In this document: positions 3,302 through 24,532 of the stretch, in pieces
Numbering within the stretch: position 1 is the stretch's first letter
How the letters are laid out: each line of letters opens with the position of its first letter
From: a virus
Virus record (IMG/VR): IMGVR_UViG_3300034101_001706
Span: 1 to 34,300 of that record
Strand: one strand, 5' to 3'
Length of the DNA stretch: 34,300 nt
Made by a program: the position numbers and the translations under genes
Notes under the pieces: model-generated
Told to the model about the DNA's origin: nothing
The model's input: only the letters and a program-made list of their open reading frames with translations
The model's database searches: none

Positions 3302-3586
3302 ATGGTAAACCTTTACGTAACTGAAGGCAAGGGGAGGGACCCTGTTAAATTCTATCGAAATAGGGTTCGAATATTCATAGAGAAGGACATGTCATACGGA
3401 TTGTGGATTGACGAGGACTTTCTGTTTGAATACCTGAATATTGACCAAAAGAGAATGTACCTTTCCGGTAATTCAGAAGAGTCGCGAAGGTACGTTATAC
3501 CTAAGGAAGTCGCCAAAAAGCTAATTGAAAAGGGTGTGACCCCCCTTAGCAAAAGGCCCATGATAAAGATGATTGAGGACCTCTGA
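3302..3586 (+). CDS. Hypothetical protein
   Basis: A roughly 94-aa basic protein, not recognised. A GTG at 3296 overlapping the previous stop would add two residues; I prefer the ATG at 3302. It looks like a small alpha/beta fold (VNLYVTEG, VRIFIEKDMSYGLWID, then VIPKEVAKKLIEKGV). Its stop codon overlaps the ATG of the topoisomerase gene (TGATGG), so the two are probably translated together. No motif suggests a function. Confidence 0.68.
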   Translation: MVNLYVTEGKGRDPVKFYRNRVRIFIEKDMSYGLWIDEDFLFEYLNIDQKRMYLSGNSEESRRYVIPKEVAKKLIEKGVTPLSKRPMIKMIEDL

Positions 3587-5610
3587 TGGAAAACACCATT
3601 AACGTTAGTCTCTCTAGTCAATTGAAGGAGGACTACATGGCCTACTCCATGGCGGTTCTCGTAGGAAGAAGCATCCCGGACCTCTACGACGGACTCGTCC
3701 CGTCTCGTCGACGTATCCTTCAGACTATGCTTGAGGAGGGGCTCCTTCCCGGAAAGCCCTATGTCAAATGTGCTCGAACAACTGGTTTAACGAGTGCGTA
3801 CTACCACCCTCACGGTTCAGCTTACGGGTCTCTGATCAATATGGCGACTCCCTGGAACAATAATGTTCCCTGGGTAGATTGCCACGGGAACATTGGGAGC
3901 ACAGTTGACGGACCGGCTGCAGAGCGCTACCTTGAAAACCGCCTTCAGCAGGCAGCCATTGACCTTCTCCTGCAAGACCGAGAGGTCTGGGACACTCGGC
4001 CGAATTATGACGGCTCTAGGAAGGAGGCAGTGCGGCTAAATAGTGCACTTCCGGCTATCCTCTTAAACGGCGACTCCGGAATTGCCGTCGGCTTTGCGAC
4101 ACGTTTGGCCCCCCACTCCCTTTCATCGGTCGTAGAAGCTGTAAAGCTGCTTTGCCAAGAGACAAAAACAGAAAAGCAAAAGCTCGAGAATCTTCGAAAA
4201 GCCCGCCTAACACTAGTCCCCGACTTTCCGACAGGTCCTGAAGTCGTTGAGGACGAGCAACTCGATATTTACACAAGAACAGGAAGCGGCAACATTCGTT
4301 GCAGGGCAATTTGTAAAGAGGGGACCCAAAAAAGGGAAGGAAGAGCAAAAGATCGTCCCACCCTCATCTTCACAAATCTCCCTCCGAGTGCTAATCCAGA
4401 AAAGCTCGGGGAACAGATAAAATCCGAGCTGGAGAAGGGGAGAATAGAAGGTGTAGCTGAGGTAAACGACCTTTCTGACAAGGAGGGGGACTGCCTAGAG
4501 ATCGTGGCAAAACCCGGAGTAGAGACCGAGACCCTTAAGCAACAACTTTACACATACACAGACCTAGAATTGAGGTACTCGGCCAAGTCTTTGGTCATTG
4601 ACGGTGTGAGGCCCATAGATCTATCCCCCACCCAAATGGTTCAGAAGTGGGTAGGGTGGAGAGTACAGAAACTTCGGGAAAAGTTCTCCTATGAACAGTC
4701 TCTAAAAGAATCTCGTCTTCACATCGTTGAAGGTCTTCTTTTAGCAATTGGCAAGATCGATTCCATTATCAAGAGAATCAGGTCCTCGAAAGACAAAAGC
4801 GAGGCCAAATCCTCGCTGATGACCAAGCCGTTCAACTTCTCAGAAAGGCAGGCCGAGGCGATTCTAGACATGAGGCTTCGGCAGCTCTCTAATCTCGACT
4901 CTAGCGATCTGGAAGAGGAAAGGATTTCACTTGAGACTAGAATAACGGACCTTAAGGAGCTGACTCAAGAGGGGCCAGAAGGTGAGAAAGCCAGAAAGAA
5001 TCATCTGGTGAAAGAGGTGACTTCACTAGGTAAGATTTACGGAAAGGGGAGAAGAAGCCCTCTGATTAAGATTGTCGAGTCTCCCGTACAACTGACAGAG
5101 AAGAAGTCTTCTCCTAAGGTATCTTCCCCGAAGCCTAGATTTATGAAAGTGGACTCTAAGAAAGGGACTGTAGAACAGGCGAAAGGGCCCCGAGGGGCAT
5201 TAGTGCTAGACTCAAAGGATAAGGTTATCCTCATGACCGAAGACGGATTGCTTCGAAAGGTTCCGTCGAACTTTAAGGGGGCGATCTCCAGTTCCTACTC
5301 CCCCGTCACTTTGGCCAAAAGGGAGGCAGATGTCTCCCAAAGAAAATACCTGATTGTGTTTGAAGTGGAAAGTCAGGTTCGGTGCATCGTTCTCAACGGA
5401 ATCGACTTGTGCAAATCAACAAGCAAAGGGAAGAGATGGCTGATGGAAGGTTCCCGGCTTATCCACTTTTCAGAAAACCCTTACACTGTAGAGTGGGTTT
5501 CAAAGAGGAGGAAGCCTTTGAAATTAGACTTGACACAGAAGTCAGGGAAGCCCGCCTCAAGGGGGGTTAAGATCGGGTCTGCAGAAGAAATTGTAAACCT
5601 AAAGGGGTAA
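3586..5610 (+). CDS. Type IIA DNA topoisomerase, subunit A (GyrA/ParC-like)
   Basis: A 674-aa breakage-reunion subunit. The N terminus matches GyrA/ParC (YMAYSMAVLVGRSIPDLYDGL, then PSRRRIL). AYYHPHGSAYGSL (71-83) is the quinolone-pocket region and DGPAAERYLENRL (108-120) carries the catalytic tyrosine, Tyr115. IAVGFATRLAPHS follows the tower entry, and a coiled-coil region with EAILDMRLRQLSNLD is typical. The C-terminal region (about 520-674) is much shorter than the six-blade GyrA pinwheel, with only two or three blade-like repeats (GALVLDSKDKVILMTEDG). It should cut and pass DNA with an ATPase B subunit, which is not in the window; it presumably relieves torsion during phage replication. 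A-subunit identity is secure; gyrase versus topo IV activity is not. Confidence 0.9.
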   Translation: MENTINVSLSSQLKEDYMAYSMAVLVGRSIPDLYDGLVPSRRRILQTMLEEGLLPGKPYVKCARTTGLTSAYYHPHGSAYGSLINMATPWNNNVPWVDCHGNIGSTVDGPAAERYLENRLQQAAIDLLLQDREVWDTRPNYDGSRKEAVRLNSALPAILLNGDSGIAVGFATRLAPHSLSSVVEAVKLLCQETKTEKQKLENLRKARLTLVPDFPTGPEVVEDEQLDIYTRTGSGNIRCRAICKEGTQKREGRAKDRPTLIFTNLPPSANPEKLGEQIKSELEKGRIEGVAEVNDLSDKEGDCLEIVAKPGVETETLKQQLYTYTDLELRYSAKSLVIDGVRPIDLSPTQMVQKWVGWRVQKLREKFSYEQSLKESRLHIVEGLLLAIGKIDSIIKRIRSSKDKSEAKSSLMTKPFNFSERQAEAILDMRLRQLSNLDSSDLEEERISLETRITDLKELTQEGPEGEKARKNHLVKEVTSLGKIYGKGRRSPLIKIVESPVQLTEKKSSPKVSSPKPRFMKVDSKKGTVEQAKGPRGALVLDSKDKVILMTEDGLLRKVPSNFKGAISSSYSPVTLAKREADVSQRKYLIVFEVESQVRCIVLNGIDLCKSTSKGKRWLMEGSRLIHFSENPYTVEWVSKRRKPLKLDLTQKSGKPASRGVKIGSAEEIVNLKG

Positions 5611-5672: not shown

Positions 5673-6215
5673 ATGGTTGTAGTATACCCTTTCTCTAGGC
5701 TTCTGGCTAACCCGAGACTGTTTTTTGCGATTTCAGATTTCCTTGGGGGACCAGACCCTGAGACCCTTAGGGAATCATTTTACGAACTCTTAGAAGCCGA
5801 ATCGGGGGATGAGTCCCCTGAAGACTTTCGTTTTGACGTGGAAGAGGTCTACTTTGAATCCGAAGAAGACGCATCGGTAGTGATGATAACCTTTGATAAC
5901 GGAAAGATGCTAAGGTTAGAAGCTATTGAGGGAGAGGTCAACGCCCAAATAACTTCTGAAATGGACTTTATAGCGGCATCAACTGTGAGTCGACGCCTGA
6001 TCGACGCCATCGAGGAATCCCACCCTGAGCTGAAAGACGATATAGCACTTGAACACCCCCCGACGCCAGGGAACAGATTCTTAAGCTCAGAGGACGGAGA
6101 ACACTTTGAAGGAAGCTTCCACCTTCGCTCAAACCCCGACATTAAGTACGCCTTTCGGGTCATAAGCCTTGACCCAGAAATGGAGCAACTAGAGGCCAAA
6201 ATTCAACCGATGTGA
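5673..6215 (+). CDS. Hypothetical acidic protein
   Basis: A 180-aa strongly acidic protein (many Glu/Asp, for example EAESGDESPEDF) that I do not recognise. The first about 25 residues are hydrophobic (MVVVYPFSRLLANPRLFFAISDFL) but contain Arg and Pro and do not form a clear signal peptide. The middle contains alternating strand-like segments (SVVMITFDNGKMLRLEAIEG). A TTATTATGG context with no clear SD marks the start. It lies downstream of a GGGTAAAAT motif in the replication-side gene group. Function unknown. Confidence 0.68.
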   Translation: MVVVYPFSRLLANPRLFFAISDFLGGPDPETLRESFYELLEAESGDESPEDFRFDVEEVYFESEEDASVVMITFDNGKMLRLEAIEGEVNAQITSEMDFIAASTVSRRLIDAIEESHPELKDDIALEHPPTPGNRFLSSEDGEHFEGSFHLRSNPDIKYAFRVISLDPEMEQLEAKIQPM

Positions 6216-6234
6216 AAACGTCAACGAAACAACG

Positions 6235-7044
6235 ATGGTAGACAACGTAATTTACGCGACAGACAGCTTAAGAACTACAGTATCAGCTATTCGAAAGAAG
6301 GTCTCTGGTCTGAAAATTAGCGTAGAGTCCTTTGACTCAGAGCTAACTAAGCTCGAGAGCAAGTTCGAAAAGCTTCTCACTCAGACAGAAATTTACAAGA
6401 ATAAACTGAACAGAGAAATGGGTAGAGAAGTCAGGAGACTTCAAGCCGAACTCGATAGTCTTAAGAAAGAAGCGAGATCTGGAGTCCCCTCGTCCAGCTC
6501 GGAAAACCCTTTAGAAGTTTCCATCGCGTCCACGATCGCCATTTTCGAGTGTATCCTCCGACACATTTGCCAGGACTCTGAAGATGTTAAGCTCATGTGT
6601 TACTCTTTCCTCTTCCCCTCAATTTTCGAGAGAGTGGTGAGCGCTGAGGATGAAGCTTACTTTCTAGACGAGCTTCCTAGGTCCGCACCACTGGTTATCG
6701 AAAGAGGTAAAGAATACGTATCGTACATACGGTCAATTTGTGAAACCCACGTAACAGACCCAGAGTCCTGGGAACTCATCTCCGACCCTTTGGCCGACTG
6801 GTGGAGGAATGATGCCTTACCCCTTTTATACGGTTCAAGGGATGAGGAATGGGATACCGATATTCCTTTGTCCTTAACTGAAATGCTAATCTGGAAGAAT
6901 GAGCCTTCAGAGAGACCAATTCATTTCTCCAGAGTCTTCGATGGATTCGAAATATACCGAAAACTTAAGGATAAGGTTTACGACGTAACAGGAGTCAGAG
7001 CTTTTGACCTTAGAATGTTCACTTTTGAGGGATCTGAGGGCTAA
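6235..7044 (+). CDS. Hypothetical protein with long N-terminal coiled coil
   Basis: A 269-aa protein. Residues about 10-80 are a continuous heptad-like coiled coil (SFDSELTKLESKFEKLL, later VRRLQAELDSLKKEA), then a short Ser/Pro linker (SGVPSSSSENP), then a helical, aromatic-rich domain with several Trp residues and acidic clusters. No enzyme motif is visible. It begins 19 nt after the preceding gene and lies upstream of the polymerase gene. A structural or adaptor role is plausible given the coiled coil, but there is no direct support. Confidence 0.7.
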   Translation: MVDNVIYATDSLRTTVSAIRKKVSGLKISVESFDSELTKLESKFEKLLTQTEIYKNKLNREMGREVRRLQAELDSLKKEARSGVPSSSSENPLEVSIASTIAIFECILRHICQDSEDVKLMCYSFLFPSIFERVVSAEDEAYFLDELPRSAPLVIERGKEYVSYIRSICETHVTDPESWELISDPLADWWRNDALPLLYGSRDEEWDTDIPLSLTEMLIWKNEPSERPIHFSRVFDGFEIYRKLKDKVYDVTGVRAFDLRMFTFEGSEG

Positions 7045-7068: not shown

Positions 7069-7389
7069 ATGTCTCGAGACCCTATGACTCCTAACTGCGT
7101 CAGAATGAATGCCCACGTGAGGGAAATCCTCCATGAAAATGAGGACTTGGGTGGACCTTTAGGAAAGAGTTACACAGGGTGGTCCAACATCTACAGCCAT
7201 TATCTTCTCGGTGACTCTTCTACCATAGGGAGACCCTCCCTCTCTTCATACACTGTAAGGAGCTGGGAAGGTTTATCTCCCCGATGGTCACAACCCCCCA
7301 AGAAGTTATACGACAGTCCCTACGGAGCTATAATGTTTCCTGTTCAAGACAGCCCTTCTTCACCCCCTCTAAATTCAATCGAGATCTAA
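7069..7389 (+). CDS. Hypothetical protein
   Basis: A 106-aa protein rich in Ser, Pro, Gly and Tyr, not recognised. It has little predicted secondary structure and no catalytic motif. It is preceded by a GGGTAAATT motif and followed after 21 nt by the polymerase gene. Support is ORF length, position in a tightly packed same-strand gene string, and absence of any competing frame. Confidence 0.58.
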   Translation: MSRDPMTPNCVRMNAHVREILHENEDLGGPLGKSYTGWSNIYSHYLLGDSSTIGRPSLSSYTVRSWEGLSPRWSQPPKKLYDSPYGAIMFPVQDSPSSPPLNSIEI

Positions 7390-7410
7390 GATAAACCAAA
7401 AACCAACGCC

Positions 7411-10356
7411 ATGAAAACAAACCCACTCGGTTACCCGGTCCTCTCTGACGAGATCCATAAAAGAGTCTTCGGTTCAGAGGGGTCCGGGTCTTTCAATGAA
7501 CGGTCCCTAAACCAGGCCAGAAAGCTCCTCAGGAAATTCGGAATAAACACCCCAGTTGATTACCCTGATAACCTTTATGACGGGGGTCTCCCCCTTCCGT
7601 CCCTTAAGGGGGGTGATCTCCAGGAGCACTTCGAGAAGATTGCAGAGGATCAGATCGGTTCCTACAAAGTTCTGGCGGACTCCTTCTCCAAGTGCCAGCT
7701 TCCCAAAGTCCCGGGGGATGAGGACATTTGCTATAGACCAGGGTGGACAAGATACGAGTGGCTGGAGAAGGAAGGTAAGTTCAAAATAGAAGAGGTCCCC
7801 TTCCCTTCCGAAGAGGCCCTAACCTTTGACACAGAGACCTTTGTTCAAGGGGGAGGTTTCCCTATCATTGGAACGGCGGTCAGTGAAGTGGCTGTCTACA
7901 TATGGTTGGCGTCTGAGCTTCTGGACCCCTCCTTACCCTTAGAGAAATGGGATCAGTTAAATCTAATCCCCATGGGAACGGGAAAGTTTATAGCAGGACA
8001 CAATATTAGTTATGATCGAGTTCGCGCTCAAGAGGGCTACTCCTTGAGTAGAACCTCACCAGAAAACTTTTATTTCGATACTCTATCGGCCCACATCGGA
8101 GTTTCCGGTCTCGCTTCCGGTCAACGTTGGCTATACCTTCTTGCCGCCAAAGACCCAGAAAACCTCACTGAAGAGGAGAAGAGGAAGCTCAGGTATGCTC
8201 CAAAATGGTTAGATGAGGGGTCGACCAACAGTTTGGTTCAGTGCTATAACTTCCACGTTTACGAGGTTAGAAAGTACTTCGGTGACGACAATGTTAGACC
8301 TCTGGACCAAGGAGACAAACAAATTCGAAATGTTTTCGTAGACGCCTCCCACATGGTTCAGATTACGGCAGTTCTGAGGGACGCCGTTAGATACGCTGTC
8401 AAAGACGCATACTATACCGCAGAACTCTTTCAGGCACTTTGGCCCAAGTACCTTGACAGCACACCTTCTATGGTTGGACTCTGCGGCCATTACCACTTGA
8501 ATGGCTCCGTAGTGCCCCTCGTTAAAAACTGGCAAAAGTGGGTGCAGAAGGCAGAAGAAGTCTACCATAGCTACAGTGATGAAGTAACGGACATATGCAA
8601 AAGACTTCTTCTTCAGACTTACGAGAACTGGAAAGAAGTGGTAGAGTCTCTGGATGATCTTGAAAAAGGGTTGGAACTGGCAAACAAGTGGGTCCGAGAG
8701 GACCCCTGGACATCCCAACTAGACTGGGAAGTCAAAACCCTTAAAGGAAAGTACGCAGGGATTCCCACATGGTACCGAGCTTACTTGAAGGACCCGGATA
8801 AGTCTATCGGGGTCAGATCCATTCTAGCCCACCTTCTTTTGAAGCTGAAGTATGAAGGGTCGCCGATATTCCACTTTAAGGATAAGGGATGGTGTTATCG
8901 AGACGAGAGCGGCTCCCTTGTAAAAGTTCCACACCCTAAGGGGACGGGGGAAAATGTCGGAGGTCTCCTCAGCAAGGACTTTGTCCAGGACATGGAGGTC
9001 GGAAGGCTCAGCAGTGACCTTCCGGAAGCAAAGAGAGTCCTGGACGTTGCTAACTCTATTAGCTACTGGACTTCTGTTCGAAAAAGAGTTATGGACAGGA
9101 TATACATGCCTGTTAAGAATCCCTACGGTTCCGATGCCCTCGTAACTTTACCGGAGATCCTTTGCCACGGAACGGTAACTCGTAGAACTGTAGAGAGCCT
9201 TATGGCAACGATGTGCTCTACTAAAGACTGGAGAATCGGCACTGAACTAAAGACAAGAATTGAAGCCCCAGAGGGATGGAAAATCATCAGTGCCGACTAT
9301 GATGGCCAAGAGCTCCAGATTGCCTCGATCTACAGCGACCGATGGGAAAGTGGGATTGCGGGGGGGTCCCCGATGGGTTACAACGTTCTTTCAGGGTCTA
9401 AGGAAAATGGAACGGACCCCCACACTGCCCTCGCCAGGGCTATTCTCCCAGAGATCTATAAAGGGCTCGTGTGGGACAGAAAGAAAGGGGTCTGCGAAGC
9501 CGTAGATGAGGAATCTAAGGGACTTGAAGGAGTTTTCTACAGTGAAGAAAGATCGTTGTGGCTGAAGCCCATCGAGAAGAGTAGAAACAACCTCCTCAAA
9601 ATGGCTAGGGATCTGGCTAAAATCGTAGGTTTCGCTATCCTCTATGGGGGAAGTGTTCGGGCACTGAGCACCCCCATCAGAAGGACCTTTCCGGACAAGA
9701 AGGAAAAGGAGGTTAAAGACTTTGCCCTGAGGGCCATATCCTCCAAGAAGGGTTTTTTCTCCAACGGGACTTATGAGGGTGGCTCGGATTCGGGGGCATT
9801 TAACTTAATGGAAGAGATATCCATGAAGTCTAAGATTCCTCAGTTACCTTGCCTAGGGACTAAGATCTCTACCGCCATGCGTCCTGCAGCCGTGGGAACA
9901 GACTTCAAAACTGGAAGGACAAACTGGACAATTCAAGCTTCAGGGGCCGAAATCCTTTCAATCACGCTAACTGCTGTAGCGTGGTTGGCGGAAGAGTATC
10001 GTATCCCATACAGATTCATCATTAGTATACACGACGAACTGCACTTCATGACCCCTGAAAAATACGCAGAGCAATTCGCAGTTTTATTTCAGATAGCGCA
10101 CATGTACACATGGGCAAGATTTCAGAGTTCGGTAGGTATACCCGAACTACCCCTAAGTCGTGCCTTTTTCTCGTCCGTCGCAATTGACGACCGCCTCAGA
10201 AAGTCTCCCAAAGAGTGTACAGTTACGCCTTCTAACCCCGAGGGAAACTCCGAACCGAATGGGGTAGAGTATTCCTTAAAGGAACTCTCTGAAATCGGGG
10301 CAATCGAAAAACTTAGCACAAGATTGAAAGCAATTCAAAAAGGATTAATCAAATGA
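7411..10356 (+). CDS. Family-A DNA polymerase of the mitochondrial Pol gamma type
   Basis: A 981-aa replicative polymerase with 3'-5' exonuclease and polymerase domains. Exo I is FDTE (Asp140, Glu142), Exo II GHNISYD (Asp202) and Exo III KDAYYTAE (Asp332). Polymerase motif A is ADYDGQELQIA (Asp629, Glu634), motif B R733-x3-K737-x3-F741-x3-YGG (Tyr745) and motif C SIHDE (His874, Asp875). From memory of POLG and Mip1, colinear matches run end to end: NPLG near residue 4, WTRY (112-115), SGL-x-S-x-QR after Exo II, EDPW (430-433), KVPHP (505-509), GTVTRR (587-592), GTELK (610-614), NW-x-x-Q-x-S (838-844), AFFS-x-V-x-ID with LRK (to 931) and TPSNP (939-943). It is longer than T7-type polymerases (about 700 aa). 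A roughly 51-residue insertion precedes motif B. It overlaps the next gene by ATGA. No accessory subunit is seen in the window. Confidence 0.95.
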   Translation: MKTNPLGYPVLSDEIHKRVFGSEGSGSFNERSLNQARKLLRKFGINTPVDYPDNLYDGGLPLPSLKGGDLQEHFEKIAEDQIGSYKVLADSFSKCQLPKVPGDEDICYRPGWTRYEWLEKEGKFKIEEVPFPSEEALTFDTETFVQGGGFPIIGTAVSEVAVYIWLASELLDPSLPLEKWDQLNLIPMGTGKFIAGHNISYDRVRAQEGYSLSRTSPENFYFDTLSAHIGVSGLASGQRWLYLLAAKDPENLTEEEKRKLRYAPKWLDEGSTNSLVQCYNFHVYEVRKYFGDDNVRPLDQGDKQIRNVFVDASHMVQITAVLRDAVRYAVKDAYYTAELFQALWPKYLDSTPSMVGLCGHYHLNGSVVPLVKNWQKWVQKAEEVYHSYSDEVTDICKRLLLQTYENWKEVVESLDDLEKGLELANKWVREDPWTSQLDWEVKTLKGKYAGIPTWYRAYLKDPDKSIGVRSILAHLLLKLKYEGSPIFHFKDKGWCYRDESGSLVKVPHPKGTGENVGGLLSKDFVQDMEVGRLSSDLPEAKRVLDVANSISYWTSVRKRVMDRIYMPVKNPYGSDALVTLPEILCHGTVTRRTVESLMATMCSTKDWRIGTELKTRIEAPEGWKIISADYDGQELQIASIYSDRWESGIAGGSPMGYNVLSGSKENGTDPHTALARAILPEIYKGLVWDRKKGVCEAVDEESKGLEGVFYSEERSLWLKPIEKSRNNLLKMARDLAKIVGFAILYGGSVRALSTPIRRTFPDKKEKEVKDFALRAISSKKGFFSNGTYEGGSDSGAFNLMEEISMKSKIPQLPCLGTKISTAMRPAAVGTDFKTGRTNWTIQASGAEILSITLTAVAWLAEEYRIPYRFIISIHDELHFMTPEKYAEQFAVLFQIAHMYTWARFQSSVGIPELPLSRAFFSSVAIDDRLRKSPKECTVTPSNPEGNSEPNGVEYSLKELSEIGAIEKLSTRLKAIQKGLIK

Positions 10357-10550
10357 GAAAAGTCAGCAAACCGAAGAAACCACGGACCTGTTTCGTGGTT
10401 GTGCAGCATCGAAAAGGAAAAGTGGGATACTACTGGTGGCCCATTCCTTTCGACAAGAAGAGAAGGCAAATCCCTTCTTCTGTAGATTGCTGGTATAATG
10501 CGGAATACTTCTCCAGGGGGTCCTCAGTCGAGACTCTTAGGACCCTGTGA
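10353..10550 (+). CDS. Small basic hypothetical protein
   Basis: A 65-aa Lys/Arg-rich protein (RKVSKPKKPRTCFVVVQHRKGKVGYYWWPIPF). Its ATG overlaps the polymerase TGA by 4 nt, so it is probably translationally coupled to the polymerase. The basic, aromatic composition would suit nucleic-acid binding, but there is no recognised fold. Its stop overlaps the start region of the next gene. Confidence 0.62.
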   Translation: MRKVSKPKKPRTCFVVVQHRKGKVGYYWWPIPFDKKRRQIPSSVDCWYNAEYFSRGSSVETLRTL

Positions 10551-10774
10551 TGCCTCTCCCCCTTCCACTAGACCCTGATTTTAGGATAGAAGTTGTCGAG
10601 TCGTGGTTAGATGACTTTCTGGACCGGGTTCAAATGGGGGACCACCATGCCGCTGAGTACAGCCTTTCTGTTGCCACACAGGTCTACCTTAGCCTGCCCC
10701 CTGGGAGGGGCCATGAGGACATAGAGAGAAGAATATGTAAGGGAAGGGTAAAACTAGAGCACCTACAACCATAA
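10550..10774 (+). CDS. Small acidic hypothetical protein
   Basis: A protein of about 74 aa, mostly helical (RIEVVESWLDDFLDRVQMGD, later HEDIERRICKGRVKLEHL). A GTG at 10547 is possible, but the ATG at 10550 overlapping the previous TGA is preferred. It is not recognised. It lies at the boundary between the replication genes and the virion genes, and a GGGTAAAAC motif overlaps its 3' end. Confidence 0.6.
   Translation: MPLPLPLDPDFRIEVVESWLDDFLDRVQMGDHHAAEYSLSVATQVYLSLPPGRGHEDIERRICKGRVKLEHLQP
10746..10754 (+). promoter_or_regulatory. GGGTAAAAC motif (possible promoter element)
   Basis: A copy of the recurrent motif with one change, inside the end of the preceding gene and 24 nt before the ATG at 10779, the first virion gene. 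Because it encodes R-V-K in frame, it could be chance. Confidence 0.3.
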
Positions 10775-10778
10775 CCAA

Positions 10779-11114
10779 ATGCGAACGGTATCTTCTCAAT
10801 CCACAGAAGCGACAGTGGGGTCTAGAGTGGCTCTTCCTGAATTAGAAACATTCTCGACCAAACTCTCCGACGGGAGGGAAATCACAATTCGAGAAATGAC
10901 TGGGAGGGATCTCCTATACATGGAAGACGAACTGACCGACATGAAGGAGACACGAAGAAGTTTCCACCTTTTGGAGAGACTGAACGTCGGTCCCAACAGT
11001 GTATCCTTCGACGACATTGCGGACTTAAGTTTCAGGGATATAAAAGCCCTAACAGAACTTGTTACAAAGGTTAGTGAAATTGGGACCCAAGAGGGCAAGG
11101 AAGACCCAAAATAG
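10779..11114 (+). CDS. Tail assembly chaperone, short (G-type) product
   Basis: A 111-aa protein with the strand pair and motif KLSDGREITIREMTGRDLLY (residues about 28-47) common in tail-assembly chaperones of Mu- and lambda-like phages. Such proteins bind the tape measure protein during tail assembly and do not remain in the virion. The last codons read GAC CCA AAA TAG, placing a CCCAAAA slippery heptamer (11105-11111) directly before the stop. The -1 frame is open through it into the next ORF, so a fraction of ribosomes should make a 251-aa fusion. It starts 4 nt after the preceding stop. Confidence 0.8.
   Translation: MRTVSSQSTEATVGSRVALPELETFSTKLSDGREITIREMTGRDLLYMEDELTDMKETRRSFHLLERLNVGPNSVSFDDIADLSFRDIKALTELVTKVSEIGTQEGKEDPK
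11105..11111 (+). other. CCCAAAA slippery site for programmed -1 frameshift
   Basis: The heptamer fits X-XXY-YYZ in the zero frame (C CCA AAA) and is followed immediately by TAG. After a -1 shift the reading is CCC AAA ATA GAA GTA, without a stop until 11531-11533. A 7-bp hairpin (CCTACTT, loop AGTGA, AAGTAGG) lies at 11139-11157. That is 27 nt downstream, farther than usual for a stimulator, so its role is uncertain. Confidence 0.78.
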
Positions 11115-11533
11115 AAGTAGAGGATCTAGAAGACTTCACCTACTTAGTGAAAGTAGGGGAGTCTGAGAAAGTTCACGTCAGAGAACTGAGGCCCTCAGAC
11201 TTCACTTACTTACAACTCTTGCGTAACAAGAATAAAAGCTCTACTAAGATCCTTGAAAAGTTGATCCTGAATCCCGAAGTCCTCGGAAAATTAAAGGCTA
11301 AGAATTTCAGGCATTTTGCTAAGTGGTCAGCTGAGAATATATTCAGTGAGAGCGTTTTTTCGGTAGAGAGTTGGCTAGAAGTCGCATTTCACCTCAATAA
11401 ACAACGTTGGGATAATGGACTTGACTGGTTAGAACAGCAACCCATGAGTAAAATCAAGGCCATGATTTCCATAAACAAAAAGATGGCTGAACAACAAGAA
11501 GGTGAGCTTAAGAAGACTCGGAGAAAGAGGTGA
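11111..11533 (+). CDS. Tail assembly chaperone, frameshift (T-type) extension
   Basis: The -1 frame reads from ATA at 11111 to the TGA at 11531-11533, adding 140 residues to the 111-aa upstream product to give a GT-like fusion of 251 aa. The only internal start candidate is GTG at 11147, which lacks a nearby SD and falls in the loop of a hairpin, supporting synthesis by frameshifting. The segment contains VHVRELRPSDFTYLQLL, resembling ITIREMTGRDLLYMEDE in the upstream part, so the T region may carry a diverged copy of the G domain. It ends with a basic tail (KKTRRKR). The family role is binding the tape measure and recruiting tail tube subunits. Confidence 0.75.
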   Translation: MEVEDLEDFTYLVKVGESEKVHVRELRPSDFTYLQLLRNKNKSSTKILEKLILNPEVLGKLKAKNFRHFAKWSAENIFSESVFSVESWLEVAFHLNKQRWDNGLDWLEQQPMSKIKAMISINKKMAEQQEGELKKTRRKR

Positions 11534-11940
11534 TAGACATAGAGTTCAAAAGTGATTTCGGGGTAAAACCCTTCAACCTCTGGTGGTGGCAACCTGCTAA
11601 AGAGGAGTGGGGGGGAACCCTCGTTGAAGACAACAAGCCTTTCTGGAAAAACCAAACAGAGGTGAATGGTAGACCCTGGAAACCTTTGTCGGCGAAGTAC
11701 AGAGCCTGGAAAGAGAGGGTTTACGGTAACCTTCCGATCCTGAGACTCTCAGGAAATATGTTAAATTCAGCTGAGGTCGTAACCTATCTTCGGAACGACA
11801 AAATTGATGTCAGGACGACTAAATTAGGCCCCTACCACCAATTCGGAACCGATACCATTCCCGCAAGACCTTGGTTCGGTATTCCGGACAAATCTTTAGA
11901 TAGACTTTCAGAAATATCATGGAAACACATTCTAAAGTAG
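11530..11940 (+). CDS. Virion morphogenesis / tail completion protein (Mu gpG-like)
   Basis: A 136-aa protein starting at GTG that overlaps the previous TGA (GTGA). It has the pattern of the phage virion-morphogenesis family: RPWKPLSAKYRAWK, then PILRLSGNMLNSAEV, then YHQFGTDTIPARPWFGI, ending in a helix. Family members (Mu gpG, P2 gpS-type) act at tail completion or head-tail joining. Its place directly after the chaperone frameshift pair fits a tail assembly block. There are 45 nt before the next gene. Good family match, moderate certainty about exact step. Confidence 0.8.
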   Translation: MIDIEFKSDFGVKPFNLWWWQPAKEEWGGTLVEDNKPFWKNQTEVNGRPWKPLSAKYRAWKERVYGNLPILRLSGNMLNSAEVVTYLRNDKIDVRTTKLGPYHQFGTDTIPARPWFGIPDKSLDRLSEISWKHILK

Positions 11941-12844: not shown

Positions 12845-15800
12845 ATGGCAACTTTTTCCTTCGGATCCGGAATCTCTTCCGGGGCACCAGGCACTTACAT
12901 TAACGAACAAGTCGGAAATATAGCTCCGGCGGGAATCGCCCCTTTCAGCACAATCTACATGCTAGTAGAAGCTGAGGAGGACGTGCCAGTCACTCGGTTC
13001 CCGTTTAACACCCCTGTTCCCGTATCCTCCCTCCAAGATTACCGCACTCTGGTTGGTGGGACCCCTGAGTCGAGGGTCCCTCTCCTAAGCTACAACTGTG
13101 TGAATGCCTTCTTCGCGAATGCGCAGGTTGGAGACTTAAGAGTCGTTAGAGTTGGGACCCCCAACCAAATCGTTGAGGTCGAAATTCTTCCCTCCGGTCT
13201 GAAGCTGAACGAGACCGGACTCCCCTCCCCACTTCAAGCTGGGGACACCGTTTACATTCAGCTTCTACTTAACAACCAAAAGCTAGTAGCAGGCGACGGA
13301 TCGACAGGGTACACTTCTAACGGAGAGTGGCTCGGTGTCCCAGTTCTGATCCCAGTTGAGTACATTCCTGGAGACGAGGTTAACAACAGAAGGATCTCTT
13401 CCGCCATTGCCAAGGCGATCTCCGACGCCATTGAGAGCAATCCTAGCCTTCGCAACTCCGTCTATGTTCGAGATTTCGGTCTTGTGAACGACCTTCTTCC
13501 GGCCTCGGGTTCCGATAGCGGGTACGTCACCATCGCAGCGAGTTCCTACAACGGAAATGTTACTGTCCAGGCTATTCAAGAGTCGACCGGAGGGAATTTC
13601 GTCTTAATGACGAATGGGTACGAAATTGAGAATATCGTTGGTCTACAAAACAATCTGGAGAGAGTTCCCCAAGACTACATTCAGTGTATCGATACTGCGT
13701 TCGATGGTCAATCTGATCAAGGGTATCTGATTGCCCCTGCTGCTTACGCCCAATTTGACTCTGAAGGGAGAGCTGCAGTAGGTGCCGCCGCTGCCGCCCA
13801 TTGCCAAAAGAACGAGTTTAAGTGGCTAGCTATCCCAGATAAAGGCCCCCGCCTGATCACGGATGTGAACAAGTACAAGGAGTATGTTCCTCACAGTCCG
13901 ACTGAAGATCTCAGCACGGAATCTCTTTACTTGGTAGACAACGCAATCTACAAGTGGGTTGGGTCTAGTGTGACTCACGATCGCGCCAAGTTCCAAACTT
14001 TACAGCCAGGATTTGACCCTGAAGTGGCTGTTCGACAGTCCGTAACTTCAGTGTCAACAGATGAGACTCTAGGGCTCAGAGACCTGTCCAAGTTCACTGT
14101 GAACTCTACGGCCCCCTTGGCTGAATACGGTGTTTTTGAACTTGACAACGACGTGATCTGGCCGGTTGAATTCCAAATTCAGCAAGTCACTCTGAGTGAC
14201 TTGGGTGAAGACTTCGAAGACCTGCTTCCCAGCGGTTCCACGTCTGCTGAGGTCTACATTGTAGCTCCCCCTTACGATACGGCTCGATACGGCCCTTACC
14301 CTTCAGACGGCTCTTCGCAATATGTCTTCATTTGTTCGACAGCATCTGAAGCCGTATCCGTTCTCACGGAAGTAGAGGCTCTCGGCGGGACCGTAAAGGT
14401 CGTTGAAGCGATGGCAGCACCCTTGAACTGCTACACCGTTTCTTCCCCCACTGGAAGCACCTCTTCGGCAACTTACAGCACCCCTCAGTGGGACCTGAAT
14501 GTTGAGATTGAGGGACAAGTTTCAAATCTGGTTCGAAACCTGACTGGAACCAACACTTACATCAATAACCTTCACCTTCCCGGAACTCTGCAGAATTCAA
14601 CGTCTGAATACAGACTGTCTTTTGTTAGCCGAGTGGTTCTAGACCCTTCCTCAACTGTTTCTGAGGCTTCTGAGCCTGGGTTCTCTGGCTCTGCTCGATT
14701 TGAGATCGTATCCCACAAGCTCGTCAACGGTCAAAGGGTGTACTTCACCGAGGCTGTCTTGGCCGGAAGTGCGGTTCTGGTGAAAGCCACTTCTAAGGCC
14801 AGTCTAAATCCCTACTTCGTTCGTGTGATCGACAATGATCACGTAGTTCTGGCTACATCGAGCTCCAACTATCTGTCCGGGTCATACATTCCTTACCCAA
14901 GCGAAAGCGTTTCTACCCTACCTACCGTGGTTTATTCAACGGTCAGGGGTGGAGGAATCTCTTCCGTGAACCTCTCGGAGCTAAGTGTCCTTCCCATGAT
15001 TCGAGGTAGGAAGTACGGGATTTCTACAGGAACAGTTTCAGAGGAAGCTGCAGACTCGAGCTCTTCTCCGAGCCCTTCTTCGGACAATCCGGCCGTCTCC
15101 ATCTTCCTGAACTCAAGCAGCCTCATCACTGGCAAGGAAAGAGTTTTTCCTTACGGGGAAGACGACGAAGCGGGCTGGCTACCGAAGCTGAAGCTGGTTT
15201 CTCCTGGAAGCCAGACTACCACGATTGAGAACTTCGTTTGCACTCCGACTGTAGAGCAGAGTTTCTCCTCTGAGGCCTATCTGGTTCCGACCTTCCAGGT
15301 TTTCGGTGGGGAATACGAAGCAGATACCACGGCAGGAACGGGGGCTCTTAGCTCAGTCACCGCATACCCCTCTGCTTGCGGGCTCAGCACCTCTTCATCG
15401 GGGGAAGACATTCAGGAAGCCCTTAGCTCTCTGTCAGGAGTCTACTTTAATGTGACTGCCGCCCCGGCTGGATCGGTCGCCCCGGATGGAACGACCGCAG
15501 TGGTCGAAGGGGACAGAATTGCCGTGGTGTTCAACGGATCTAACTATGAATGGGTGGTTGTCCCTGCTGAGGTTAAGGGTGGAGACTTAAGCTCGGTAGC
15601 TCGCATTTGCTACGGTTCCCAAGTTGAGGTTCCCTTGTCTGCCGAGAAGACTCCCCCAGAGAATCTCTGGAACTTTGAGGCTGTAACATCGACCGAAATC
15701 ATCAGCGATGCCCTTAGGGGGGTCGGCTTTAACGGAGAACCTCAGGCCCAGTTCATTGAGGCCGGTGTTGATAGCGTCAACCGATTCTATGAGGATAGCC

Positions 15801-16495
15801 AAAGGTACTTTAATGCGTTCGGATTCATAGCATATTACGGTCCTTACGTCGAAAACTCTTCCGGGCAGATGATTCCGGCGTCACCTTATGTGACAGGGGT
15901 TGCTGCTCGCAGGTATCGTTCCGAGGGGTTCCAGTTCCCACCTGCAGGGACGAAATATCAACTTGCGGATGCGGTGGGCGTTGACCTTGAGGTCAATTCT
16001 GCTCAACAGAACCTACTCAACCCTGACGGATGCAATGTCCTACGCAGCCTCCCTGGTTACCCCTCGACTGCTGTCTTCGTGTGGGGAGGACGAACTAGAG
16101 TTAATACCAGTGTTCCGGACCAGAAGAATTTCCAGTTCGTCAACACCCGTGTTATCCAGAACGTGGTTTACGGGTCGCTTCGAAATGCTTTCGATAACCA
16201 GATCTTCTCAGTCGTCGACGGCTTCGGAATCGTGTTCAACCAGATCGTCTCGATCGGAAACAGCGTCCTGAGCCAGCTTTACACGTCGGGGGCCCTCTTC
16301 GGAAGAAGACCTTCAGACGCCTTCCAGATTATCTGCGACGAAAGAATCAACCCCGCAGAGGATCTTGAGAACGGAATCGTGAATGTTAAGGTGTTTGACA
16401 CTCCAGTGCCGACTCTCGAGAGAATCGAGCTTGACCTCATTCGGGTCTCGATCGGTCAAATGCAACGTGAATTGGAGTCTCAGGGTCTGGGGTAA
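12845..16495 (+). CDS. Contractile tail sheath protein, very long
   Basis: A 1216-aa sheath subunit. The N terminus (SGAPGTYINEQ, then VGNIAPAGIAPFSTIYMLVEAE) and the following VGGTPESRVPLLSYNCVNAFFANA match sheath N-terminal regions. The last about 200 residues (YRSEGFQFPPAGTKYQL, later VFVWGGRT, FVNTRVIQNVVYGSLRNAF and LGRR-like FGRRPSDAF) form the conserved sheath C-terminal domain that links neighbouring subunits. The middle (about 350-950) is a large Ser/Thr/Gly/Val-rich insertion, probably beta-structured and exposed on the outside of the tail. T4 gp18 is about 660 aa, so this is nearly double. The start is preceded by GAGG 14 nt upstream. Identification is strong; function of the insertion is unknown. 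Confidence 0.9.
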   Translation: MATFSFGSGISSGAPGTYINEQVGNIAPAGIAPFSTIYMLVEAEEDVPVTRFPFNTPVPVSSLQDYRTLVGGTPESRVPLLSYNCVNAFFANAQVGDLRVVRVGTPNQIVEVEILPSGLKLNETGLPSPLQAGDTVYIQLLLNNQKLVAGDGSTGYTSNGEWLGVPVLIPVEYIPGDEVNNRRISSAIAKAISDAIESNPSLRNSVYVRDFGLVNDLLPASGSDSGYVTIAASSYNGNVTVQAIQESTGGNFVLMTNGYEIENIVGLQNNLERVPQDYIQCIDTAFDGQSDQGYLIAPAAYAQFDSEGRAAVGAAAAAHCQKNEFKWLAIPDKGPRLITDVNKYKEYVPHSPTEDLSTESLYLVDNAIYKWVGSSVTHDRAKFQTLQPGFDPEVAVRQSVTSVSTDETLGLRDLSKFTVNSTAPLAEYGVFELDNDVIWPVEFQIQQVTLSDLGEDFEDLLPSGSTSAEVYIVAPPYDTARYGPYPSDGSSQYVFICSTASEAVSVLTEVEALGGTVKVVEAMAAPLNCYTVSSPTGSTSSATYSTPQWDLNVEIEGQVSNLVRNLTGTNTYINNLHLPGTLQNSTSEYRLSFVSRVVLDPSSTVSEASEPGFSGSARFEIVSHKLVNGQRVYFTEAVLAGSAVLVKATSKASLNPYFVRVIDNDHVVLATSSSNYLSGSYIPYPSESVSTLPTVVYSTVRGGGISSVNLSELSVLPMIRGRKYGISTGTVSEEAADSSSSPSPSSDNPAVSIFLNSSSLITGKERVFPYGEDDEAGWLPKLKLVSPGSQTTTIENFVCTPTVEQSFSSEAYLVPTFQVFGGEYEADTTAGTGALSSVTAYPSACGLSTSSSGEDIQEALSSLSGVYFNVTAAPAGSVAPDGTTAVVEGDRIAVVFNGSNYEWVVVPAEVKGGDLSSVARICYGSQVEVPLSAEKTPPENLWNFEAVTSTEIISDALRGVGFNGEPQAQFIEAGVDSVNRFYEDSQRYFNAFGFIAYYGPYVENSSGQMIPASPYVTGVAARRYRSEGFQFPPAGTKYQLADAVGVDLEVNSAQQNLLNPDGCNVLRSLPGYPSTAVFVWGGRTRVNTSVPDQKNFQFVNTRVIQNVVYGSLRNAFDNQIFSVVDGFGIVFNQIVSIGNSVLSQLYTSGALFGRRPSDAFQIICDERINPAEDLENGIVNVKVFDTPVPTLERIELDLIRVSIGQMQRELESQGLG

Positions 16496-22623: not shown

Positions 22624-22924
22624 ATGATGAATCTCCAACAGACCTATGCTGGCGTGGATCCCATCCTCACGACGCTAGCACAAGGTTTCATGCTACCGTC
22701 TACCAACATTGCGAACTTTATCGCACCTGTTGTAGACACTCCAACCAGAGCCGGAAGAATTCTTCGCTTCGGTAAGGAACAATTCGCTATCAACGACTTC
22801 CGTCGTGCTTACGGTACGAACATCCCTTATGTTCAGAGCCGTTACGACTCGGAGCCTTACGCTCTTGAGCAAGAAGTTGTGGCTTGGGAACTCCCGGAAG
22901 AAGTCGAATTGGCTTCCGCCGCTT
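22624..22924 (+). CDS. Major capsid protein, exon 1
   Basis: Encodes the first 100 residues plus the first base of codon 101. It begins MMNLQQTYAGVDPILTTLAQGF, with conserved capsid-type text such as NFIAPVVDTPTRAGRIL and EPYALEQEVVAWELPEE. Without splicing it would stop at TGA 22924-22926. Splicing after T22924 joins it to exon 2 at 23787 and forms codon TTA, giving ...ASAAL-DLRAIETRNAMSRL. The full protein is 348 aa, a normal HK97-fold coat size for Mu-like and myovirus heads. It is preceded by AAGGG and by a putative promoter with two leader hairpins. Confidence 0.85.
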
Positions 22925-23786
22925 GAGAGAGTGGTTGTAAAACTGGGTGAATTGCTGGGACCCTAACTGCATCAATTACGCACAAGGGAATCAGCAGCCA
23001 AGTTTACTACTTCGGTTCATAACCTAAAATGAATGTAGTAAAAAGGTTCAACGACTAGATGGTGAGTTCCGAAAACAATAATCCATCCACGAGTGCCCAG
23101 CACCCTAACAAATGGTTGAAATGGTACTACACTCTGTGCTCCTCAAGAAAATACAGGGGTCTCTCCAAGGAGAAAGGTTACCACGTCCATCACATCTTAC
23201 CTTTATGTGACGGCGGGGACAACTCTAGAGAAAACAGAGTGAAACTGACTAACCGAGAACACTTTATTGCTCACGTTCTACTTGCAAAAGGAACTGACTC
23301 AGTTAAACACTGGTTCACAGTCAGAAGAATGTTGGGAGTGAAAGGTGGAAAAGGAGCAGTTACCTATCAGCCTCGTCTATCAATTCTCGCTTCTTCACTT
23401 CATAAAACTGCCTTTGAACTTGCTCCAGGGGCAGCTCAAAAGGGAAGGCCAAAATCGGACCAAATGCGTTCAAGATTAAGCCAAACCAAGAAAGGAAAAC
23501 CTCTCCCCCCTGACACCATTCGAAAGGCACATGACGCTGTTCGAGGAAGGGTCCAAACAGAAGAGGAGAAGAAAAGAAGAAGCGACTCCGCAAAAGCTTA
23601 TTGGGCGGACGGTAAGAGGTCCAAAGCTCACAGGCAAACCGCCCGTGAGCATATGACCGATCTTAGGAAGAGAGAAACAGGGGTGAAGATATAGTCTGAC
23701 CTCCTCGAAAGAGAGAGAAGCGAGGAATAAAGAGTCCTCGCGATAACAAAAGTGCATCGAAAACGCAGGAGAAGGTCCTGCACAAG
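22925..23786 (+). other. Group I self-splicing intron in the major capsid gene
   Basis: 862 nt. P1: exon end CCGCTT pairs with GAGTGG (22929-22934) around a GAGA loop, with the required U-G wobble at the splice site. GTTCAACGACTA (23046-23057) matches the conserved R region known from the T4 td intron. GACTA (23053-23057) pairs with TAGTC (23692-23696), forming P7, and AAGATATAGTCTG is the usual 3' core. A terminal hairpin GCAGGA-GAAGG-TCCTGC (23765-23781) precedes ACAAG, with G23786 as terminal G. Splicing here restores the capsid frame. An alternative 3' site 6 nt upstream (after G23780) would also keep the frame but cuts the terminal hairpin. Confidence 0.9.
23059..23694 (+). CDS. Intron-encoded HNH homing endonuclease with NUMOD3 motifs
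   Basis: A 211-aa protein. HVHHILPLCDGGDNSRENRV followed by LTNREHFIAHVLL is a classical HNH core. The downstream basic part has NUMOD3-like repeats (KGRPKSDQMRSRLSQTKKGK, later RSDSAKAYWADGKRSKAHR) that usually bind the target DNA. It should nick or cut intron-less capsid alleles and so spread the intron. Its ATG starts immediately after P7 5' strand, and its TAG stop is part of P7 3' strand, so the coding sequence spans the P3 3' strand and P8 region and shares bases with the ribozyme core. There is no SD near the start; expression may be low. Confidence 0.9.
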   Translation: MVSSENNNPSTSAQHPNKWLKWYYTLCSSRKYRGLSKEKGYHVHHILPLCDGGDNSRENRVKLTNREHFIAHVLLAKGTDSVKHWFTVRRMLGVKGGKGAVTYQPRLSILASSLHKTAFELAPGAAQKGRPKSDQMRSRLSQTKKGKPLPPDTIRKAHDAVRGRVQTEEEKKRRSDSAKAYWADGKRSKAHRQTAREHMTDLRKRETGVKI

Positions 23787-24532
23787 TAGACCTCCGCGCC
23801 ATCGAGACTCGAAACGCAATGTCTCGTTTGATGAACTCTTACGAGTACACTGTTTCCCAAGCGGTCACGGTGACTGGCACCTACAACCCTTACGAGCCCT
23901 ACAGCGGAACTCCCGGTTCTCAGACAGGTCTCGGCTTCACCACCTGGTCCAACTTCAGCACCGCCTACGGCTCTGCAGCTGTCGGCCCTGCGGCATGGTC
24001 CGGACTGTCCGCGAACCCCATCGAGGACGTTCTCACCATGAAGCGTGCCGTTGCCAATCAGATCGGTGTTCGCCCGAACTCTGCTGTCATCGGTTCCTCC
24101 GTGTTCGACCAGCTGCTGACCAATGCTGCGATTCTTGATCGCATCAAGTACACCACCGCCGACTCGATCGACACCGACGTGCTCGCACGTTACTTCGGTC
24201 TTGAGCGTGGTCTACGAGTGGCTGAAGGTCGTTATCTCGCATCCAACGGAACCCTCCAGCCGGTGTTCCCGAGCAACGGAATTCTGCTGTTCTACAGCCC
24301 GAATGGCCCTTCCGATTCCATTATGCCCGCTGGTGGGGCGAATGCTGCAACTCCTGCTTTTGCTTACACCTACCAGCTAACCGGAACACCTTCCGTTCGT
24401 CCCGAGTACTACATTCGTGAGCGTCGAGTTGTTCGAGCTGAAATCACCATCGAGCGTGTTGTCAACTTGGTCGGCCTTGGTGCGACTGGTCTCATCGGTT
24501 CTGGCGCTATGATCACCGACATCCTGTCCTGA
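23787..24532 (+). CDS. Major capsid protein, exon 2
   Basis: Begins with TA completing codon 101, then DLRAIETRNAMSRLMNSYEYTV and continues to the TGA at 24530-24532, adding 247 residues. The segment contains TMKRAVANQIGVRPNSAVIGSSVFDQLLTN and VLARYFGLERGLRVAEGRY, the usual P-domain layout of Mu gpT-like and other HK97-fold coat proteins, and ends with YYIRERRVVRAEITIERVVNLVG. The ATG at 23819 is internal, not the gene start. Codon use is noticeably more GC-rich than in most neighbours, as expected for a highly expressed gene. Confidence 0.85.

Follow-up and report, generated by a model that had tools for sequence, protein, structure and literature searches.

DNA polymerases of the Pol gamma type have been published from cyanophages since 2011. 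They were described in the Acaryochloris phages A-HIS1 and A-HIS2 (Chan et al. 2011), the first report of the kind, in S-TIM5 (Sabehi et al. 2012) and in S-CBWM1 (Xu et al. 2018), a history set out in the paper on the Microcystis phage Mic1, where a common origin of the phage enzymes with those of mitochondria was argued (PMC7156551). A 2016 review largely agrees on cyanophage Pol gamma (PMC4928673). Cyanophages are the only viruses so far reported to carry a full-length Pol gamma homologue, and where the mitochondrial DNA polymerase came from is a long-standing question.

The DNA analysed here, called the window, is a stretch of 34,300 nucleotides of a viral record (IMGVR_UViG_3300034101_001706). 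In the ORF scan of this window, an open reading frame on the plus strand at 7411-10356 begins with ATG, ends with a stop codon and codes without interruption for 981 aa. An earlier note, made from the sequence alone, had described its product as a phage-encoded polymerase collinear with mitochondrial Pol gamma. The product of this gene, polG, belongs to the Pol gamma type of family A polymerases and runs collinear with both yeast Mip1 and mammalian POLG. The homology to the mitochondrial enzyme is real, the kind of protein is an established one, and the window protein is one more member of the cyanophage family. The features of the locus are as follows.

3586..5610, plus strand: type II topoisomerase A subunit (gyrA-like), conserved upstream neighbour (PF00521, 3.5e-94)
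5673..7044, plus strand: two hypothetical genes between gyrA and polG, at 5673-6215 and 6235-7044 (syntenic in S-CBWM1)
7411..10356, plus strand: polG, Pol gamma-like family A DNA polymerase, 981 aa (ORF list; matches to PF18136, PF00476, PHROG 22619 and PDB chains)
7411..7800, plus strand: N-terminal domain, about residues 1-130, with NPLG, LS...H...FG and GWTRY (alignment, placed motifs)
7825..7839, plus strand: exonuclease motif I, FDTET, residues 139-143 (alignment; D140 and E142 invariant in the relatives' alignment)
7996..8019, plus strand: exonuclease motif II, GHNISYDR, residues 196-203 (alignment; H197, D202 and R203 invariant in the relatives' alignment)
8392..8406, plus strand: exonuclease motif III, YAVKD, residues 328-332 (alignment; Y328 and D332 invariant in the relatives' alignment)
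8710..8922, plus strand: short spacer, residues 434-504 (pairwise alignments to Mip1 428-484 and human POLG 550-617)
9289..9315, plus strand: polymerase motif A, SADYDGQEL, residues 627-635 (alignment)
9439..9585, plus strand: insertion of about 49 residues between motifs A and B, about residues 677-725 (alignment, model)
9607..9645, plus strand: polymerase motif B or O-helix, with R733, K737, F741 and Y745 (alignment)
10021..10038, plus strand: polymerase motif C, ISIHDE, residues 871-876 (alignment)
10147..10239, plus strand: C-terminal Pol gamma signature, LPLSRAFFSSVAID ... TPSNP (motif placement)
10353..11940, plus strand: small genes downstream of polG, hypothetical (synteny with S-CBWM1 and IMG/VR relatives for most of them)

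In Pfam searches, the polG product was matched by PF18136, the mitochondrial polymerase exonuclease domain, over residues 61-347 (2.8e-58) and by PF00476 (DNA_pol_A, 9.7e-12). Among PHROGs, the match to PHROG 22619, a DNA polymerase family, reached 1.9e-227, and PHROG 17 matched more weakly. When the protein was compared by phmmer with the sequences of all solved structures, the best chain was 9c51, yeast Mip1 (9e-101), and mouse and human POLG chains gave values of about 1e-94 to 1e-98. These were the only strong matches in the PDB, where Pol I chains obtained only E = 0.06. The mouse POLG sequence used throughout this work is PDB chain 9g74_A, described by the PDB as mouse.

Alignment with Mip1, POLG, T7 and Pol I enzymes revealed family A motifs A, B and C together with the catalytic aspartates and the O-helix, and the exonuclease and polymerase motifs that the note had read from the letters are all intact. 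The catalytic residues are kept across the aligned relatives, and the motif patterns are intact in all of the 126 scored. The further signature segments that the note had assigned to Pol gamma, and not to Pol I or T7 enzymes, are present without exception (14 of 14), in order and at the corresponding positions of mouse POLG and yeast Mip1. The resemblance goes well beyond what chance would give, and the assignment agrees with the PF18136 match and with the best PDB chains, which are all Pol gamma. Position 741 of the O-helix, at a site that governs chain-terminator discrimination in other family A polymerases, is phenylalanine in the window and tyrosine in mouse POLG and Mip1. Phenylalanine is found there in 77/77 Aokuang-type proteins and tyrosine in 48/48 of the S-TIM5 type, a contrast also noted for phage isolates in the Mic1 paper (PMC7156551).

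An AlphaFold model of the polG product, built from 38 phage sequences, had a mean pLDDT of 86.5 and a pTM of 0.84, with values mostly >90 in the N-terminal domain. When this model was compared with the PDB using Foldseek, 36 Pol gamma chains ranked ahead of everything else. The match extends over the whole length of the protein, with TM scores of 0.78-0.79 for human POLG (0.79 for 8d33, full length) and 0.75 for Mip1, versus 0.3-0.4 for structures of the Pol I type, so that the structural comparison proposed in the note came out in favour of Pol gamma. A fold search against viral models placed proteins of 959, 608 and 245 residues at ranks 1, 2 and 7; the latter two fit the sizes of the two Mic1 exons and may represent them.

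Conservation of the same segments, in the same order, had been claimed for the entire protein, including its N-terminal and spacer regions. This holds for the N-terminal domain, with which Mip1 and mouse and human POLG align from residue 2-3 on, while the spacer is shared only in part. Its core, WYR...LLKLKYEGSP...GWCY, is kept, aligning with Mip1 428-484 and weakly with human POLG 550-617, and is conserved in relatives (WYR...GWC). The stretch between EDPW and KVPHP measures 75 residues in the window, about 120 in Mip1 and about 270 in human POLG. Judging from these alignments, the accessory-interacting region of human POLG appears to be missing from the window spacer: the lacking part, about 195 residues in total with respect to the human enzyme, corresponds roughly to the accessory-interacting subdomain of human POLG plus a second stretch. 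The insertion before motif B is modelled with good confidence as strands at residues 686-689, 693-698, 709-711 and 716-720. It occurs in 23 of the 77 Aokuang-type relatives scored and is absent from the other 54, from mouse POLG and from Mip1.

Next to the mitochondrial enzymes, with which it shares about 33% identity as well as the N-terminal domain, exonuclease, thumb, spacer core, polymerase core and C-terminal signature, the window protein is thus distinguished by being phage-encoded, by its shorter spacer, by the insertion and by the O-helix phenylalanine. Animal Pol gamma is the mitochondrial enzyme of a nuclear gene, whereas the window polG lies among phage genes.

A tblastn search of 50,697 phage records gave 11 matches, every one in a cyanophage, and several of these polymerases are annotated as DNA polymerase gamma. 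The closest was that of S-CBWM1 (gp77, ATW62761.1; Aokuangvirus), with 58.4% identity over 100% of the protein, followed by the S-TIM group (35-36%), A-HIS1 and A-HIS2 (31%) and Mic1 (30%); the matches of S-TIM5, A-HIS1/2 and Mic1 cover 97-99% of the window protein (97-98% for A-HIS1/2). S-CBWM1 resembles the window also in its gene order, with gyrA and two hypothetical genes before polG and small genes after it, in the O-helix phenylalanine and in an insertion of like kind before motif B; it differs in the position of the tail and capsid genes relative to polG and by a sequence divergence of 42%. The S-TIM5 enzyme (Aurunvirus) is likewise of Pol gamma type and full length, with 35% identity, but it has the O-helix tyrosine, no insertion and a different gene neighbourhood. 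The polg genes of A-HIS1 and A-HIS2 also code for Pol gamma-type enzymes, although they form a separate clade and the A-HIS1 genome is far smaller (55.7 kb). The Pol gamma of Mic1 (ORF86/ORF85) differs from that of the window in that its gene is split by an intron and in that it clusters with mitochondrial Pol gamma, to which it is closer than to the Pol gammas of other phages.

More than 120 distinct full-length relatives were found in viral contigs, a far denser sampling than the handful published. With A-HIS1 as the query no relatives were found in the viral contigs, and searches around Mic1 returned only near-identical copies there (L263, L264, L265).

Most window ORFs match S-CBWM1, and the block of gyrA, two hypothetical genes and polG stands in the same order in both; the window gyrA is 53% identical to S-CBWM1 gp73 and is placed alike. 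The window also encodes portal, sheath, protease, capsid and baseplate genes homologous to those of S-CBWM1. The portal, sheath, capsid and baseplate genes and the synteny with S-CBWM1 support a phage origin of the contig, and by gene order and homologous structural genes the phage is Aokuangvirus-like. Genes of the photosystem reaction-centre family PF00124 (psbA/psbD) are found in S-CBWM1, in S-TIM5 and in 9 of 22 IMG/VR relatives, while the window fragment holds no host marker.

The replication genes were searched for in 20 related phage records, which include the complete genomes of S-CBWM1, A-HIS1, S-TIM5 and Mic1; the searches for family A, B and C polymerases each gave the expected matches in controls. 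In every record (20/20) the Pol gamma-like enzyme was the only family A polymerase, and none of the 20 contained a polymerase of family B or C. It is therefore very likely that the Pol gamma-like enzyme is the replicase of these phages. Transcription of polG in Mic1 falls in the middle phase of infection, that of replication (PMC11237433). An anticodon domain of the POLG2 type (class II tRNA synthetase) was found in none of the 20 records. Along with the apparent loss of part of the spacer, this points to an enzyme of one subunit, like that of yeast. Neither a helicase of the DnaB/Twinkle type (PF03796, 0/20) nor a T7-type RNA polymerase (PF00940, 0/20, with a match in the T7 positive control) was detected in these records, and thus a single phage carrying the mitochondrial set of Pol gamma, Twinkle and T7-type RNA polymerase was not found among them. 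S-CBWM1 and A-HIS1 encode a primase-like protein with DUF5906.

The best explanation of the ORF at 7411-10356, and one that we hold with high confidence, is that it codes for the Pol gamma-type replicase of an uncultured cyanophage related to S-CBWM1 (Aokuangvirus). Besides its N-terminal domain, the enzyme has a DEDD exonuclease for 3'-5' proofreading, a thumb and a short spacer, and its palm/fingers core carries the two catalytic aspartates of motifs A and C and R733, K737, F741 and Y745 of the O-helix. Most likely it would copy the phage genome as a single subunit, like yeast Mip1, with no POLG2-like accessory subunit, and in proofreading it would shift the primer end into the exonuclease site. 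It would probably act together with a DUF5906-type primase-helicase of the phage and with a 5'-3' exonuclease, by analogy with S-CBWM1. The catalytic activity, processivity, partners and host of the window polymerase are in this sense what we infer for it. The phage enzymes could serve as single-subunit counterparts with which to compare human POLG, and they also offer an O-helix phenylalanine that occurs naturally.

Maximum-likelihood trees were calculated under LG+C20+F+G4, with 871 columns in the ingroup tree, and were rooted either with seven outgroups or with four of the T7 type only; mouse POLG and yeast Mip1, both opisthokonts, were the only eukaryotes included. In both outgroup-rooted trees, the phage and mitochondrial Pol gammas were split from T7-type and Pol I enzymes with a support of 100/100. 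The window protein, for which a tree had been proposed as a check, falls inside this clade and outside the T7-type and Pol I enzymes, grouping with S-CBWM1 and IMG/VR relatives at 100/100. Mic1, mouse POLG and Mip1 were joined at 100/100 without outgroups, at 100/99 with seven outgroups and at 95/99 with T7-type outgroups only, and also when the N-terminal part (100/99) or the C-terminal part (98/97) was used alone. The Mic1 polymerase is 41% identical to mouse POLG and 40% to yeast Mip1 but only 33% to the window protein. Since Mic1 is closer in trees and identity, the suggestion of the note that the window protein itself is a relative close to the root of the mitochondrial enzymes was not borne out, and the more rewarding subject to follow is Mic1, for its grouping with mitochondrial Pol gamma, and not the window protein.

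These results bear on several other readings of the gene. A common phage PolA of the T7 or Pol I kind, sharing no more than the generic family A motifs, could account for the weaker matches to PF00476 and PHROG 17, but the collinearity with Pol gamma over the full length, the PF18136 match against an E of 0.06 for Pol I, the tree and the TM scores speak against it, and we reject it as extremely improbable; profile, tree and structure all support setting the protein apart from Pol I and T7-type enzymes. Contamination of the assembly by eukaryotic DNA, which had been discounted on the grounds that the gene is intronless and overlaps phage genes, would find in its favour the resemblance to mitochondrial Pol gamma and nothing else. 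The ORF is uninterrupted, its stop overlaps the start of the downstream gene at 10353, the phage genes gyrA, portal, sheath, capsid and baseplate flank it, and the gene order is repeated in an isolated phage, S-CBWM1, and in many independent contigs, so that the chance of contamination is practically nil. A bacterial home for polG was also rejected. The sole match among 84,980 bacterial and archaeal genomes was a contig (CALGUV010000157.1) binned as an uncultured Microbacteriaceae MAG, which is syntenic with the window around polG and is therefore most likely a misbinned cyanophage contig. The plasmid search for polG relatives gave no match.

As regards the relation to mitochondria, a mitochondrial enzyme nested among the phage Pol gammas is favoured, and favoured at most, since a tree with all phages in a single clade stays unrejected (AU p 0.083 with seven outgroups, 0.21 with four) and two opisthokonts are the sole eukaryotes. 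A derivation of the mitochondrial enzyme from a cyanophage-type Pol gamma, within the phage radiation and beside a Mic1-like lineage, would account for the higher identity of Mic1 to mouse POLG and Mip1 than to the window and for the branch that unites the three in all trees and in both parts of the protein; with the all-phage clade unrejected, a root weakly placed by very long outgroup branches and two eukaryotes only, we propose it tentatively. The more specific version, in which opisthokont Pol gamma is nested in the cyanophage radiation with a Mic1-like phage nearest and the donor virus had neither T7-type RNA polymerase nor Twinkle-type helicase, is somewhat more doubtful; if true, these two mitochondrial proteins came separately from Pol gamma. 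The opposite direction, with Mic1 or the cyanophages overall having taken the gene from a eukaryote, which would make the cyanophage polymerase a mitochondrial enzyme acquired by capture, would agree with the grouping of Mic1 with the eukaryotic enzymes and with the finding of Pol gamma, among phages, so far in cyanophages only. However, the other phage lineages are deep and more diverse (30-39% between groups) than a recent capture would give, and the mouse and yeast enzymes pair with each other and leave Mic1 outside (100/98), which means that a eukaryotic donor would lie outside the opisthokonts. We consider this direction unlikely.

Interruptions of polG were observed in two relatives from viral contigs, one at 10080-10815, after residue 698 (L065), at the spot of the insertion of about 49 residues, which could conceivably be a relic of a mobile element, and the other at 7233-7962, after residue 499 (L080). 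Both inserts are about 730 bp long and their internal ORFs resemble homing endonucleases by eye. Together with the published Mic1 intron, after residue 631, three insertion sites are found in polG, and Rfam recognised no group I intron in the inserts of L065, L080 and Mic1. In the window, the major capsid gene (22624-24532) is split by a group I intron (Rfam RF00028, 22901-23717, 71.2 bits) carrying the ORF of an HNH homing endonuclease (23059-23694), and its exons match the S-CBWM1 major capsid protein. The tail sheath protein at 12845-16495 is unusually long (1216 aa), with a known sheath domain only at its C-terminal end.
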